Shown one piece after another: positions 32,853 through 51,092 of a stretch of DNA of 52,387 bases. A program made the position numbers and the translations under genes. Each line of letters opens with the position of its first letter. Position 1 is the first letter of the stretch. Under the pieces are notes generated by a model. It was not told where the DNA came from. It did no database searches and worked only from the letters and a program-made list of their open reading frames with translations. This stretch comes from Clostridiales bacterium (GTDB taxonomy: Bacteria > Bacillota > Clostridia > Lachnospirales > Lachnospiraceae). The DNA is taken from the NCBI GenBank assembly GCA_021204045.1, contig JAJQAA010000011.1:1-52387 (forward strand), in the 5' to 3' direction.

Positions 32853-32880
32853 TTGAAAAAAACGCTGACCCTGCTATAAT
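32853..32880 (+). promoter_or_regulatory. promoter of the amino-acid transporter operon
   Basis: TTGAAA at 32853-32858, 16 bases, TATAAT at 32875-32880. The leader to ATG 32955 is about 68 bases with no visible riboswitch. Confidence 0.75.
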
Positions 32881-32954: not shown

Positions 32955-33830
32955 ATGAAAAAATTACTGGCATGTGTATTATCTCTGACAATGGTACTGT
33001 CGTTTACCGCCTGCTCGAGCAGCTCCGGCAGTTCCACTACTACTGCTGCTCCCGTGAGCAGTGCAGCAGCCACGGAAGCGGCAGAAACTACGGAAGCGGC
33101 ACAGGAAGCGGATTCTGACGCGATCAATGGGCCGGAGGATCTGGCCGGCAAGAAGATTGGCGTGCAGGAAGGAACGACCGGCGATATCTATGTATCCGGC
33201 GATTTTGAGGAAGATTATCCGGATACGGTGCTTCGCTACAAGACCGGATACGAAGCCGTTCAGGCGCTGCTGACCGACAAAGTCAACTGCGTGGTAATCG
33301 ATGATCAGGTTGCACAGTCCTTTGTGGAGGCGAACGAGGGCCTGAAGATTCTGGAGACGGCTTACACGGACGAGGAATATGCGCTTTATATCAATTCGGA
33401 TCAGGAAGAGCTGCTGGAACAGGTTAACGCCGCGATCGCCGAGCTGCAGGAAAACGGTGTGCTGGATGACATCATTGCTTATTACATTGACGAAGATGAG
33501 ACGGCCAGCGCTTATCAGGCGCAGACGTCGGAATCTTTCCCGAACGGAACGCTGGATATCGCGGTAAACCCATACTTCCCGCCGTATGAATATTATGAAG
33601 GCGAAGAGATCTGGGGAATTGACGCGGATATGTGCCGTGCGATCGGTGATATCCTTGGCATGGAAGTGACCTTCTCCGCGATGGATTTCACCGCCAGCCT
33701 GACCGCGGTGCAGACCGGCAAGAATCTGATGGCCATGGGCGGCATTACCGTGACGGAAGACCGCGCGGCAGCCGGGCTGTTCTCCATCACCTACTACAAC
33801 GGCAAGCAGGTTATCATCGTAAAAGAGTGA
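32955..33830 (+). CDS. amino-acid ABC transporter binding lipoprotein with circularly permuted lobes
   Basis: Solute-binding protein of family 3, anchored by C20 (lipobox SFTAC). The lobe order is reversed. Residues about 57-177 are the normal second lobe (INGPEDLAGKKIGVQEGTTG, DKVNCVVIDDQVA). A linker (178-197) follows. Residues 198-291 are the normal first lobe (LDIAVNPYFPPYEYYEGEE, GIDADMCRAIGDI, GGITVTEDR). The protein ends at QVIIVKE, the point where ordinary members pass into lobe 2. Key ligand residues (the aromatic of PPYEYY, TEDR, GTTGD) are present. One continuous frame with RBS AGGAGGAG; it heads an operon with permease and ATPase. Substrate unknown, polar amino acid likely. Confidence 0.9.
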   Translation: MKKLLACVLSLTMVLSFTACSSSSGSSTTTAAPVSSAAATEAAETTEAAQEADSDAINGPEDLAGKKIGVQEGTTGDIYVSGDFEEDYPDTVLRYKTGYEAVQALLTDKVNCVVIDDQVAQSFVEANEGLKILETAYTDEEYALYINSDQEELLEQVNAAIAELQENGVLDDIIAYYIDEDETASAYQAQTSESFPNGTLDIAVNPYFPPYEYYEGEEIWGIDADMCRAIGDILGMEVTFSAMDFTASLTAVQTGKNLMAMGGITVTEDRAAAGLFSITYYNGKQVIIVKE

Positions 33831-33875: not shown

Positions 33876-34601
33876 ATGAGCGCATGGCTGGCATCTGTCA
33901 GCGCCTGGCTGCAGGATCTGCAGGCTGACTTTATCAAAGATTTTATAGAAAAAAACCGTTTTAAAACGTATATCCTGAGAGGTCTGCGAAATACGCTCAC
34001 GATCACCCTCCTGGCGCTGGTGATTGGCGTTTTACTGGGATTCCTGATTGCGATTATCCGTTCGACCTACGTCAAAACCGGAAAACTGAAGATTTTAAAC
34101 GTGGTGTGCGCCGTTTATGTTACGGTGCTCCGGGGCGTGCCGGTGGTTGTGCAGCTGCTGATCTTTTACTTCATCATTTTTGCGAAAAATGACCCCGGCA
34201 TAGTCATGACATCCGTTATATGCTTCGGTCTCAATTCCAGCGCCTATGTTTCCGAGATCGTCCGCTCCGGAATCATGTCGATCGACAACGGACAGTTTGA
34301 GGCCGGCCGCAGCCTGGGCTTCAATTATGTCCAGACCATGTGGTACATTGTGCTTCCGCAGGCGATGAAAAATGTATTGCCCGCTTTGGGCAACGAATTT
34401 ATCGCGCTGCTGAAGGAAACATCGATCGCCGGCTATATCGGGGTGACGGATCTGACCAAGGGAGCCGATATCATCCGGAGCCAGACCTTTGACGCGCTGC
34501 TGCCGTTGTTTGTGATCGCGGCGATTTATCTGGTTCTGGTTATGGTGCTGACGAAGCTGGTGGGCATCATGGAGAGGAGGCTGCGAAACAGTGACCACTA
34601 A
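33876..34601 (+). CDS. amino-acid ABC transporter permease (HisM/GlnP type)
   Basis: Membrane channel of a polar amino-acid importer. The 241-residue product has five hydrophobic segments and the EAA loop [20 protein letters not shown] near 143-162, followed by [22 protein letters not shown]. The N-terminal [17 protein letters not shown] is typical. GGAGGG precedes ATG 33876. It overlaps the ATPase gene by 11 bases. Confidence 0.95.
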
Positions 34602-35337
34602 AGGAGACGTTCTGATCCAGGTAAAGGATCTGCACAAACATTTCGGCACGACGGTACATGCTTTAAACGGCATCACCGAGGAAATTCACAGAGGTGAAGT
34701 GGTGGTGGTTATCGGGCCGTCCGGCTCCGGGAAATCGACCTTTCTGCGTTCGTTGAATCTACTGGAGGTACCTACCAGCGGCCAGGTTATCGTCGAGGGA
34801 GAGGATATCACCGATCCAAAGGTGAACATTAATTATCACCGTCAGAAGATGGGAATGGTTTTCCAGCATTTCAATCTTTTTCCGCACATGACAGTCCTGA
34901 GGAATCTCACACTGGCGCCAATGAAACTGCGCGGATTGTCCAGGGAAGCGGCGGAAGAAAAAGCGATGGCTCTGCTGAAGCGGGTCGGTTTGGATGACCG
35001 CGCGGGGGCGTACCCCTCGCAGCTTTCGGGCGGCCAGAAGCAGCGCATTGCCATAACCAGGGCGTTGTGTATGGAGCCGCAGGTCATGCTGTTCGATGAG
35101 CCGACCTCCGCACTTGACCCGGAGATGGTCGGTGAGGTTCTGGATGTTATGAAAGAGCTGGCGAGAGATGGCATGACGATGGTGGTGGTCACGCACGAAA
35201 TGGGCTTTGCCCGCGAAGTGGCCAGCCGCATTTTATTTATGTCGGAAGGTCAGATTCTGGAGCAGGGTACGCCGGATGAATTTTTCCGCAATCCGAAGGA
35301 TCCTAGGCTTCAGAGTTTTCTTTCGAAGGTTTTGTAA
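34591..35337 (+). CDS. amino-acid ABC transporter ATP-binding protein
   Basis: The 248-residue ATPase has Walker [10 protein letters not shown] near 47-55, Q-loop [12 protein letters not shown], signature LSGGQKQR near 146-153, Walker [14 protein letters not shown] and switch His in [10 protein letters not shown]. Start GTG 34591 lies within the permease end, with AGGAGG upstream. It is closest in pattern to GlnQ/ArtP-type proteins. Confidence 0.95.
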
Positions 35338-35351
35338 AGGGGAGAACAAGA

Positions 35352-36326
35352 ATGAGGGCAACTTTGGATGAGGCATTGCAGCGGAACGGGCTTCTGGTTA
35401 TTGACGGCTCCATGTCCACTGCGCTGGAAAAGCTGGGCGCAAATCTGAATTCACGTCTCTGGACTGCGAAAGCGCTTGCTGAGACGCCGGAGCTGGTAAA
35501 GCAGGTGCATCTGGATTATTTCAAAGCTGGTGCGGACTGCGGCATCACCTGCAGCTATCAGGCGACGATTCCCGGTTTGATGGAAAACGGATATACGGAG
35601 GATGAGGCAAAGAAGCTGATCGCAAAGAGTGTTTCTATTTTCCTGGAGGCGCGGAACGAGTGGTGGGAAGCGGAGGGAAGAGAGTCCGGCCGCAGCTATC
35701 CGCTGTGCCTGGCCGGTATCGGCCCCTATGGCGCCTATCTGGCGGACGGTTCCGAGTATCGCGGAAGATACGGTATCAGTGAAGCTGAATTGAAGGCGTT
35801 TCACCAGGAGAGAATGGAAATTTTGTGGGACGCCGGGGCGGATCTTCTGCTGATTGAAACGCAGCCCTCTCTGAAGGAGGTACTCATCGAAGCCCGGATC
35901 GCCGAGGAGATGGGCGCGGACTACTGGGTTAGTTTTTCCTGTTGTGACGGCAGACATATCAACGAAGGCAACCGGATCCGTGACTGTGTTAAGACGCTGA
36001 TGACAGACCATCCGCACCTGAAAATGGTCGGGGTCAACTGCACGAAACCGGAGCACATCGGACAGTTGATTGGCGAGCTGAAGCGGGAAACCACGCTTCC
36101 GATTGCAGTATATCCCAACAGCGGAGAGGAATACGATCCGGTCACAAAGACCTGGCACGGGAAGGGCGATTCCAAAAGCTTTGGTGAGTATGCGCTGGAT
36201 TATTATCGCTGCGGCGCGACCGCGGTGGGCGGCTGCTGCACGACCATAGATGAACATATCAGACAGGTCGTTTCTGCAAGAGACCAGTACTTAAGAGAAA
36301 GAGGGAATAAAATATGCAGGCATTGA
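35352..36326 (+). CDS. mmuM: homocysteine S-methyltransferase
   Basis: Transfers a methyl group, typically from S-methylmethionine, to homocysteine to make methionine. The 324-residue barrel has the zinc ligands C230 (GVNCTKPEH) and C295-C296 (GGCCTT), and the N-terminal DGSMSTALEKLG. It follows the ATPase by 14 bases and overlaps the AGCS symporter gene by 13, so the ABC importer and symporter may supply S-methylmethionine or a related amino acid (inference). Confidence 0.95.
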   Translation: MRATLDEALQRNGLLVIDGSMSTALEKLGANLNSRLWTAKALAETPELVKQVHLDYFKAGADCGITCSYQATIPGLMENGYTEDEAKKLIAKSVSIFLEARNEWWEAEGRESGRSYPLCLAGIGPYGAYLADGSEYRGRYGISEAELKAFHQERMEILWDAGADLLLIETQPSLKEVLIEARIAEEMGADYWVSFSCCDGRHINEGNRIRDCVKTLMTDHPHLKMVGVNCTKPEHIGQLIGELKRETTLPIAVYPNSGEEYDPVTKTWHGKGDSKSFGEYALDYYRCGATAVGGCCTTIDEHIRQVVSARDQYLRERGNKICRH

Positions 36327-37750
36327 CGGACTGGCTGTACTGGGTGGACGATTTGCTGTGGGGCACCCCGATGATTGTGATTCTGGTGGGTCTGGGGATC
36401 CTGCTCTCTATCCGTTTTGGTTTTCGTTATCAGAGAAAGATTATCTTCAATTTTAAAAACACATACGCCAAAATCGGCGATAAGGGCGAGGGTAACGGTA
36501 CGATTTCCGGATTCAAAGCTGCATGTACGGCGCTTGCCAATACGGTGGGTACCGGCAATATCTCCGGCGTCGCGACGGCGATCGTCAGCGGCGGACCCGG
36601 CGCGCTGGTCTGGATGTGGTTTTCCGCCTTTTTCGGTATGTCTACAAAAGCCTGCGAGATCATTCTGGGTCAGCGTTACCGGGAACATTACAGCAAATCC
36701 ATGGATGAGTATGTATGCGATCGCTCGTTTGTGCTGAAAAACGCGTTTGGTATGAAGAGAGGCGCTGTGGCACTGGCGGTATTCTGCTTCCTTCTGGGGC
36801 CCTGGACCTGCTGTGTGCAGACGGAAGCTGTGACCAGCTCGATCAGCGAGGCCTTCGGCGTTCCCACGATTATAACGGTCGCGGTCATCAGCGTTACCTG
36901 CCTTGTGACAATCTGGGGCGGCCTGAAACGTATTTCCGGGGTCATGTCCACTGCGGTTCCCATTATGGCCGTGCTGTACATTATTATGGGCCTGGGTGTA
37001 GTGATTCTCAATATTCAGGCGGTTCCTGGGGTGATCGCGCTCATTTTCCGAAGCACCTTTTCTCCCACGGCAGCCATTGGCGGTTTTGCCGGCGCGACCG
37101 TCCGTGAGGCGATCAAATATGGCGTTGCCCGCGGCATTTATTCAAATGACGCAGGCACCGGTTATGGCATGATCGCCCACGCGTCCGCCATCACCGACCA
37201 TCCGGTCCGGCAGTCGCTGTGGGGCTGGGGCGAGATCTTTATTGATACCATCATTATCTGCTCCATCACTGCGTTTACGATTATCATTACCGGATCCTAT
37301 TATTCCTCGGACGCCACTTCCGGGGCGCTGACGACCATCGCGTTCACCAACGCATACGGCTCGATCGGCGGCAAGCTTACGGCGATCGCCATTGCGGTGT
37401 TTGCCTGGACAACGATTATCGGGATGTATTACACCTGCGAGAAGTCTGTGAACTATGCATTCGGCGATATGGAGAGGAACCGGAAGCTGATGCCCGTTTA
37501 TATGCTCTATTATATGGTTCCCTGCGTATTGCTTTACAACATTGAGGCCGATATTCTCTGGGCGTTCACGGATATCCTTTCCGCGGCGTATGTTGCAATT
37601 ACGGTCGTGTTTATCATTGCGAAGCATAAAGAGATATTCCGTCTGTTCGATGATTTCTGGAAGCGGTATGAGCCGGCAAGAGAGCGCGGCGAGAATCCTC
37701 CCTATGTGACCTTTGACTGCGCAAATGAGAAAGGGTTCATTGAAAAATAG
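36314..37750 (+). CDS. sodium:amino acid symporter, AGCS family
   Basis: Imports a neutral amino acid (alanine or glycine in characterised members) with Na+. The 478-residue product has about ten membrane segments and AGCS signatures ALANTVGTGNISGVATAI near 73-90, GGPGALVWMW, and SNDAGTGYGMIAHASA near 276-291. The stop is TAG. It is the last gene of the transporter-mmuM operon and faces mgsA. Confidence 0.93.
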   Translation: MQALTDWLYWVDDLLWGTPMIVILVGLGILLSIRFGFRYQRKIIFNFKNTYAKIGDKGEGNGTISGFKAACTALANTVGTGNISGVATAIVSGGPGALVWMWFSAFFGMSTKACEIILGQRYREHYSKSMDEYVCDRSFVLKNAFGMKRGAVALAVFCFLLGPWTCCVQTEAVTSSISEAFGVPTIITVAVISVTCLVTIWGGLKRISGVMSTAVPIMAVLYIIMGLGVVILNIQAVPGVIALIFRSTFSPTAAIGGFAGATVREAIKYGVARGIYSNDAGTGYGMIAHASAITDHPVRQSLWGWGEIFIDTIIICSITAFTIIITGSYYSSDATSGALTTIAFTNAYGSIGGKLTAIAIAVFAWTTIIGMYYTCEKSVNYAFGDMERNRKLMPVYMLYYMVPCVLLYNIEADILWAFTDILSAAYVAITVVFIIAKHKEIFRLFDDFWKRYEPARERGENPPYVTFDCANEKGFIEK

Positions 37751-49341: not shown

Positions 49342-50815
49342 TTATTTGTCTTCATAGAAAAGACGGGTGTTTTTGTCCGCCTGGCCAACACCGAGGTAGC
49401 GTGCTTTGTAATCCTTCAGCAGCGTAAAATACTGTCCCGAGAGGATCAGGATCACGACCACGTTGACGAAAGTCGGGATGGCAGAGGTGATGTCGACCAG
49501 CGTCCAGATGAAACCCTGGTTGTTGGTCTTTACCAGGTAAATGGTCCACAGAAGTCCCGGAAGCGCGCGCACCGCGTAAAAGATCTTCATGACGACGTCC
49601 TTCACCGGCCCTTCCTGCTTGTAGAGGTGCTCCAGAATGGCCAGATCATAGGTGAGCCATCCGCCGGAGGTGGTGACGGTGAAAGATGATCATAATAAAT
49701 GCAAGCAGAATACTTCCGACGGTGCCGAAGCCGCTCGCGAACGAGCTTAACGCCAGGGTGCCGCCGTTGGTGCCGTCAACCCAGTTCCCGCTCAGAATGA
49801 CGGAAAAGCCGGTGATCGAGCAGATAATGATTGTGTCAAAGAATACCTCAAACGAACCCCAGAGGCCTTGCTCCACGGGATGCGGGGTCTTCGCGGAAGA
49901 ATGGATCATCGGGGAAGTACCCCAGCCGGCTTCGTTGGAATAAACGGAGCGCGCCATACCGACGCGGATCATCTGGCTGACCGTGCATCCGGCAAAGCCG
50001 CCGATGGCCGCGGTTCCGTTGAACGCGTTGGTGAAGATGGAGATAAACGCCGCTGGAACAAGTCGGATATTCACCAGGATCATGCCGATTCCCATAAGGA
50101 TGTAAAGGATGCTCATGAAGGGAACCAGCTTGCTGAACAGACTGGCGATTTTCCGGGTGCCGCCCGCCGTGACCATATAAGTGAGAATGCACAGCAGGAC
50201 GCCCATGATAATTACGCCCTCAATCTGGAAACCGCCCAGATTGATCATATCGAGATGGAACGCGCCGGACACAACCTGTGCCGCGGTCAGCGTCGACGAG
50301 GTCACAAAGAAGGTGGAGAAAATGCCGATGCCGAAAATAACCGCAGGAACCAGCCATAGCTTGCCCCAGTGGCGCTCCTCGCCCAGACCGCACTCCATAT
50401 AGTAGGTGGGGCCGCCGTAGAAATCACCTTTTTCGTTGGTATGGCGGTAATAGCAGCCGAGCGTAACCTCAACCTGCTTTAAAATCATACCAAGCAGTGA
50501 ACACAGCCACATCCAGAGGATGGCGCCGGGACCGCCTGCGGCAACCGCTGTAGCCACACCGGCGATGTTTCCGAAACCGACCGTGCCGCCGATGGCGGTG
50601 GAAATTGCTTCGAATGAAGTCAGCATACCCTTTTCATCGTGTGCGCCGCTGTCACTGTGGAAAATCCTCCCGATTGTCCGGTTCAGGATCCAGCCAAAAT
50701 AGCGGAACTGGAAGAAACCGGAGCGAACCGTGAAATACAGTCCTGTCGCGATCATCAGTACAATCAGCGGCAGTCCCCAAAGGATACCGTCAAGCCAGCC
50801 AAGAAACTCAATCAT
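49342..50815 (-). pseudogene. AGCS-family sodium:amino acid symporter with a frameshift
   Basis: The frame from 50815 has AGCS signatures (GGTVGFGNIAGVATAVAAGG, SNEAGWGTSPMIHSSA) and runs to LLAFIMIIF, where it goes wrong (HRHHLRR) and stops at 49646. The true continuation TVTTSGGWLTYDLAILEHLY lies in the next frame and runs on to LFYEDK at 49345. The shift is explained by one extra base in AAA at 49682-49684 (TTT on the coding strand). Joined length would be about 490 residues, normal for the family. It could be a pseudogene, a sequencing error or slippage. It sits behind the lysine riboswitch. Confidence 0.88.
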
Positions 50816-50885: not shown

Positions 50886-50907
50886 TTCATCAACCATGTC
50901 CATGAAA

Positions 50908-51070
50908 CAATAGCTCCTCCACCTGATGGTGAGAGTGCACAGCCTGTTTGACTATACCCCAACTACGGCAGCCTACGGAAAACTGCCGGTTTCGGCGATT
51001 GCTCCTTTCTCTGCGTTCACTGACCCCGTTGTCTCCGGACAGATACTCATAACAGCCGCGCCTCTATTGC
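50908..51070 (-). promoter_or_regulatory. lysine riboswitch (L box)
   Basis: Read on the minus strand: P1 GCAATAG (51070-51064) pairs with CTATTG (50913-50908). Conserved core elements appear in order: AGAGGCGCG, GAGTATCTG, AAAGGAGC, CGCCGAA, GGCTGTGCA and GGAGGAGCTATTG. This matches the B. subtilis lysC leader (AGAGGTGCG, AGAGTAT, GGGGAGC, CGCCGAAG). Lysine binding should favour the terminator at 50857 and switch off the symporter. Class identified by recall of the consensus, not by a covariance search. Confidence 0.9.
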
Positions 51071-51092
51071 CGACTCTGTATTTATTTCCTTA

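Follow-up and report, generated by a model that had tools for sequence, protein, structure and literature searches.

A natural circular permutant among the family 3 binding lipoproteins of amino acid ABC importers, probably opened at the hinge between its lobes

The gene at positions 32955-33830 (+) of a 52,387-nucleotide stretch of DNA from a Clostridiales bacterium of the Lachnospiraceae (contig JAJQAA010000011.1 of assembly GCA_021204045.1), here called the window, very probably encodes the substrate-binding lipoprotein of a polar amino acid ABC importer and, judged from its sequence, a natural circular permutant. The analysis supports a rotation in which the chain is opened at the hinge leading from lobe 1 to lobe 2 and closed by a linker between the old termini. 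The same order was found in 105 further distinct proteins, and a second permutation, cut inside lobe 2, exists beside it.

Layout of the permuted chain

The open reading frame has an ATG start preceded by a Shine-Dalgarno-like GGAGGAG and codes for 291 amino acids. Upstream lies a promoter-like site (32853-32880, +) of the form TTGAAA-16-TATAAT, the second hexamer being preceded by TG; it is a consensus match only, at 11 of 12 positions, with five such sites found against 3.3 expected. The protein begins with a signal peptide (residues 1-20; 32955-33014, +) ending in FTAC at residues 17-20, which we take to be lipobox-like, followed by a Ser/Thr/Ala/Glu spacer of 36 residues as tether (residues 21-56; 33015-33122, +). 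Then comes the first half of lobe 2, segment 2a, with the ligand residue Asp116 (residues 57-121; 33123-33317, +), and segment 2b, which holds the other half of lobe 2 together with the chain's return to lobe 1 and ends at the old C-terminus (residues 122-179; 33318-33491, +). A linker of 17 residues (180-196; 33492-33542, +) leads from there to the old N-terminus and into segment 1, i.e. lobe 1 with the ligand residue Arg270, at whose end stands the hinge sequence QVIIVKE (residues 197-291; 33543-33827, +).

This layout rests on several profile comparisons. A domain search, as had been proposed in the preliminary description of this DNA, matched the Pfam family SBP_bac_3 in two stretches in swapped order (87.6 bits, above the gathering cut-off of 26.4; E 7.8e-25), the better of them being residues 200-290 on profile positions 1-91. 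The best-scoring solved relative is AncQR (PDB 4zv1; E 4.9e-31), whose chain positions 9-103 align with residues 197-290 and positions 106-228 with residues 54-175. Given these two E values, the swapped two-piece match cannot be attributed to chance. The TIGR01096, GlnH, cystine and ArtJ models likewise each match in two stretches; TIGR01096, the NCBIfam model of the Lys/Arg/Orn binding subfamily, scores 100.3 bits, below its curated cut-off of 256.35, and the protein is not a member of that subfamily by this measure. The canonical order from lobe 1 to lobe 2 is thus absent from the native chain. When it was restored by script, one full-length match was obtained with all 25 canonical relatives, whereas the native order gave two domains above 10 bits with 23 of them and three with the other two, and the median best-domain score rose from 119.5 bits (native) to 207.0 bits (rotated). 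The spacing across the hinge from lobe 1 to lobe 2 is only 2-4 residues in 25/25 canonical relatives.

These matches bear out the reversed lobe order on which the preliminary description was built. Its lobe boundaries (57-177 and 198-291, here 57-179 and 197-291) were right to within a few residues, and its clean circular permutation, with an opened hinge and old termini joined through about 20 residues, is supported with a somewhat shorter linker. What it called the second lobe does precede lobe 1, but the end of the old chain is included in it as well. In type II binding proteins this end runs back into lobe 1; that it is found next to lobe 2 here is to be expected of a rotation at the first hinge.

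Operon and genomic neighbourhood

The permease gene (BPD_transp_1, PF00528; 241 aa; 33876-34601, +) starts 45 bp after the binding protein gene, and its end is overlapped by the start of the gene for an ABC ATPase (PF00005; 248 aa; 34591-35337, +); both assignments are Pfam matches. With its adjacent permease and ATPase, the trio has the layout of an amino-acid-type ABC importer operon, which was seen beside relatives of all three segment orders described below. A permease stands beside the binding protein or is fused to it in 80 of the 82 stretches considered (exceptions L071 and L128), and an ATPase is present in 78 of them (exceptions L071, L128, L145 and L148). The stretches of L128 and L145 stop at a contig end; even at E 1e-3, neither a permease nor an ATPase was detected in the examined stretch of L071 and no ATPase in that of L148. 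Any other neighbour recurred in at most 4 of 40 neighbourhoods.

Behind the trio, at 35352-37750 of the window, a homocysteine S-methyltransferase and an alanine-type symporter stand in tandem. The same pair occurs in a second genome of the genus (G006) with 84.5% DNA identity and without the ABC trio, which may have arrived in the window genome or been lost from G006. The methyltransferase, starting 14 bp downstream, was considered as a clue to the substrate and rejected: a homologue at E 1e-15 was found in 0 of 80 neighbourhood loci, and in G006 the gene occurs without the trio. Elsewhere in the window, a lysine riboswitch (Rfam RF00168, 81.7 bits; 50903-51074, -) lies just upstream of an ORF of 389 aa on the same strand (49646-50815, -), by appearance a sodium:alanine-type symporter. 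Seven clustered tRNA matches, one of them cut by the window end, occupy positions 1-621.

Distribution of the permuted orders

Within the genus, a match in permuted order at E 1e-12 was found in the window genome only (1/24 genomes); the relatives in G019 and G007 are canonical. Across the bacterial family, at least 82 of 397 genomes carry the hinge-cut order 2a-2b-1 among the matches listed, and the counts of this search are lower bounds, every listed single-piece match to both lobes having been split by segment profiles. All of these listed matches are 2a-2b-1 except that of G217. The 82 genomes correspond to 78 of the 79 loci L022-L050 and L151-L200, the remainder being other loci; the sequence in G190 is interrupted by a contig end. 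A search of the class with the permutant alignment gave 34 of 391 genomes passing E 1e-50, 23 with a hinge-cut protein, 10 with another order and one with a canonical protein. In the phylum, 7 of 398 genomes passed E 1e-45, those outside the class being one with a hinge-cut (G875) and two with a canonical protein.

For a census, the window protein and loci L022-L210 without L062 were combined. Of the 145 distinct proteins obtained, 106 are hinge-cut and 25 canonical, 13 belong to the second permutation, and one is a triple tandem. The canonical sample was picked by likeness to the window protein, and these ratios are not to be read as frequencies. The hinge-cut order spans 12 family codes and 87 genus codes; 79 of its proteins are stand-alone and 27 are fused to the permease. 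Across all 106, the linker joining the old ends measures 13-21 residues. The tether has a median length of 8 residues in the stand-alone permutants with a lipobox match (75/79), shorter than the window spacer, and in the fused proteins a median of 10 residues separates the end of lobe 1 from the start of permease homology. At one locus (L130, 3924-5684) two adjoining hinge-cut binding protein genes precede a single permease and ATPase.

The second permutation has the order 2b-1-2a and is cut inside lobe 2 (L066-L077 and L090; 13 distinct proteins, 7 family codes, 9 genus codes). Its chain begins halfway through lobe 2, with the strand LKILDTEY, runs to the old C-terminus and through a linker into lobe 1, and from there passes the normal hinge into the first half of lobe 2, after which it ends. 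A permease and an ATPase follow downstream in 12 of the 13 stretches, L071 being the exception. With the canonical 1-2a-2b, all three cyclic orders of the segments are represented. From the type II topology, this second permutation should keep both hinge crossings, whereas the order of the window protein should open one.

The tandem relative (L110 2913-5831, -; identical to L031) encodes, in a single frame of 973 aa, a permease with three canonical binding domains fused to it in tandem. It is the only such case among the 145 census proteins, and no half-duplicated intermediate was found there. A misreading of tandem binding domains as permutation was dismissed after an ORF-by-ORF check of the census loci, in which L031 alone was tandem. 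A link to phages was also rejected: the sole relative in IMG/VR (L086) is canonical, and further protein scans for such a link brought nothing new. Matches on plasmids comprise an Enterococcus binding protein/permease aligned across the query and a Monoglobus protein aligned by one lobe.

Number of origins

The search for homologues with the same order, suggested earlier as a way to date the event, succeeded in finding such proteins; the trees and AU tests allow one origin as well as several. Counted without distinction between gain and reversion, the hinge-cut label needs six changes in the binding protein tree (90 rows; at least four by the starred branches), six in the permease and ATPase tree (85 rows; at least four), three in the concatenated tree (78 rows; at least two) and six in a quick tree of 149 binding proteins (at least two, again by the starred branches). 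Besides the window protein, L115/L026, L116/L027, L119/L030 and L123/L042 fall outside the main clade, among canonical or second-permutation proteins, and in the quick tree L039 and L045 also belong to the small group of the window.

It seems about evenly balanced whether the main clade and this small group nevertheless go back to one old permutation, their mixture with canonical proteins being due to tree error, gene exchange or reversion. The linkers of two members of the small group, YESPEDIDRSNG (L026) and RYESPADIKYSG (L030), resemble those of the main clade, and a search with the linker motif matched 76 of the 106 hinge-cut proteins, L026, L030 and L039 among them. For the main set, an AU test did not reject a single clade with the binding protein (p 0.122, 33 rows) nor with three genes when the window was left out (p 0.083, 31 rows). 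Against a single origin stand the four or more label changes in both the binding protein tree and the permease and ATPase tree, the three-gene test with the window included (p 0.026, 32 rows, for a group that had not been named beforehand) and the window's own linker, which lacks the motif. The motif is likewise absent from L027, L042 and L045, and it was found in 0/13 proteins of the second permutation and 0/12 deep rows. One clade of all 42 hinge-cut rows gave p 0.052 with three genes. For the second permutation, the corresponding values were p 0.272 (13 rows) and 0.302 (11 rows) with the binding protein and p 0.106 (12 rows) with three genes.

The permuted order would most likely have arisen by tandem duplication and trimming, as the existing tandem relative suggests. 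Permutation by duplication is described as a model in PMC3320104, and a parent of the type required by this model is seen in the triple tandem. We tentatively propose, with somewhat more against it than for it, that flytraps of this class rotate repeatedly: the three cyclic orders coexist on the same kind of transporter, would have had more than one origin via tandem intermediates, and the hinge-cut form would be a working flytrap with a single crossing, tethered or fused to the permease from its hinge.

Function and state of the window protein

In family 3 proteins, an Arg/Asp pair holds the alpha-carboxylate and the alpha-amino group of the ligand, as known from GlnBP-type structures. The Arg in lobe 1 is present in 105/105 complete hinge-cut proteins (six pattern misses were inspected by eye, one of them truncated) and the Asp in lobe 2 in 106/106 (five misses read by eye); the window protein has both. 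Because this pair is retained, the ligand is probably a polar amino acid. The permuted protein would fold as the usual two-lobe flytrap and bind an alpha-amino acid between its lobes, with Arg270 at the carboxylate and Asp116 at the amino group; the closed flytrap would then dock on the permease, and the ATPase would drive uptake. Only one covalent hinge crossing, from lobe 2 to lobe 1, would be left instead of two, which is expected because the first crossing has been cut and both ends of the new linker are anchored in lobe 1. The membrane tether would start where lobe 2 meets the hinge.

The family may well be functional and this copy nevertheless be decaying or repurposed, i.e. serve another ligand or have no role in transport, which we regard as rather improbable. 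The window protein is divergent: of the 54 columns with at least 90% conservation among 143 relatives, it deviates in 9 (median 1), and its end branch in the binding protein tree measures 0.9 against a median of 0.17. Because of the changed columns, its ligand or activity is less sure than that of the family. Decay or a new role fits poorly with the open frame, the promoter-like site, the intact operon, the retained ligand Arg and Asp, and a partner permease and ATPase that match their Pfam families.

Still less probable is that the permutant needs to dimerise by domain swapping, its lobes pairing with those of a second chain, and cannot function as a closed monomer. The single hinge crossing expected from type II topology would ease swapping, but a linker as short as that of the 106 proteins would fit the need of a closed monomer, and the permuted type I protein TpMglB-2 was found to behave as a monomer (PMC4990184). 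A chimera or assembly rearrangement affecting an ordinary gene of this genome alone, which the preliminary description had named as its possible undoing, agrees with the single match within the genus and is practically excluded by 105 further distinct proteins that share the order and the position of the linker, and by the intact ORF and operon.

The window protein is one member of a permutant family. The sole natural permutant of a binding protein that we found in the open-access literature searched has the type I sugar-binding fold, and no permuted family 3 protein is named there in the titles and abstract openings. The hinge strand is regarded as an element that governs the closure of the flytrap; here, a whole family keeps a permutation which opens it. 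The family offers a naturally occurring test of the number of hinge crossings required by a flytrap and of the places from which it can be tethered. Moreover, two cut points, stand-alone and fused forms, and canonical relatives on like operons make it a good system to study the origin of permutations. Domain annotation that is blind to order conceals such proteins.

Comparison with known systems

TpMglB-2 (Tp0684) of Treponema pallidum is, according to PMC4990184, a naturally permuted type I glucose-binding lipoprotein, proposed as subclass 'c', whose same-order homologues occur mostly in treponemes and Gram-positives. Both it and the window protein are natural circular permutants of lipidated binding proteins of ABC transporters. 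In contrast to the type I sugar fold of TpMglB-2, where, by the same source, the permutation adds a fourth hinge crossing, one of two crossings should be opened in the window protein, which belongs to a different family with a different ligand; only SBP_bac_3 passes the Pfam cut-off, not a type I sugar-binding family.

In GlnPQ-type transporters (PDB 6h30), lobe 2 is followed by lobe 1 across the junction of tandem domains, which resembles the permuted order, and the binding domains are fused to the permease, as in the 27 fused permutants. When PDB sequences were searched with the permutant profile, 6h30 was the only one among the best 60 of 79 chains whose best stretch spanned both lobes, across this junction. 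However, the GlnP domains are each canonical, and a GlnPQ-type chain has at least two of them together with the permease, whereas the window protein has a single copy of each segment, and its permease is encoded by a separate gene.

The window protein also resembles binding proteins of the GlnH/ArtJ/AncQR type (SBP_bac_3; PDB 4zv1, 1ggg and 2pvu), with which it shares matches over both lobes, the Arg/Asp pair and the operon with permease and ATPase. It differs from them in its rotated lobe order with new termini at the first hinge and, as a probable consequence of this topology, in one hinge crossing instead of two and a tether that would start from the hinge.
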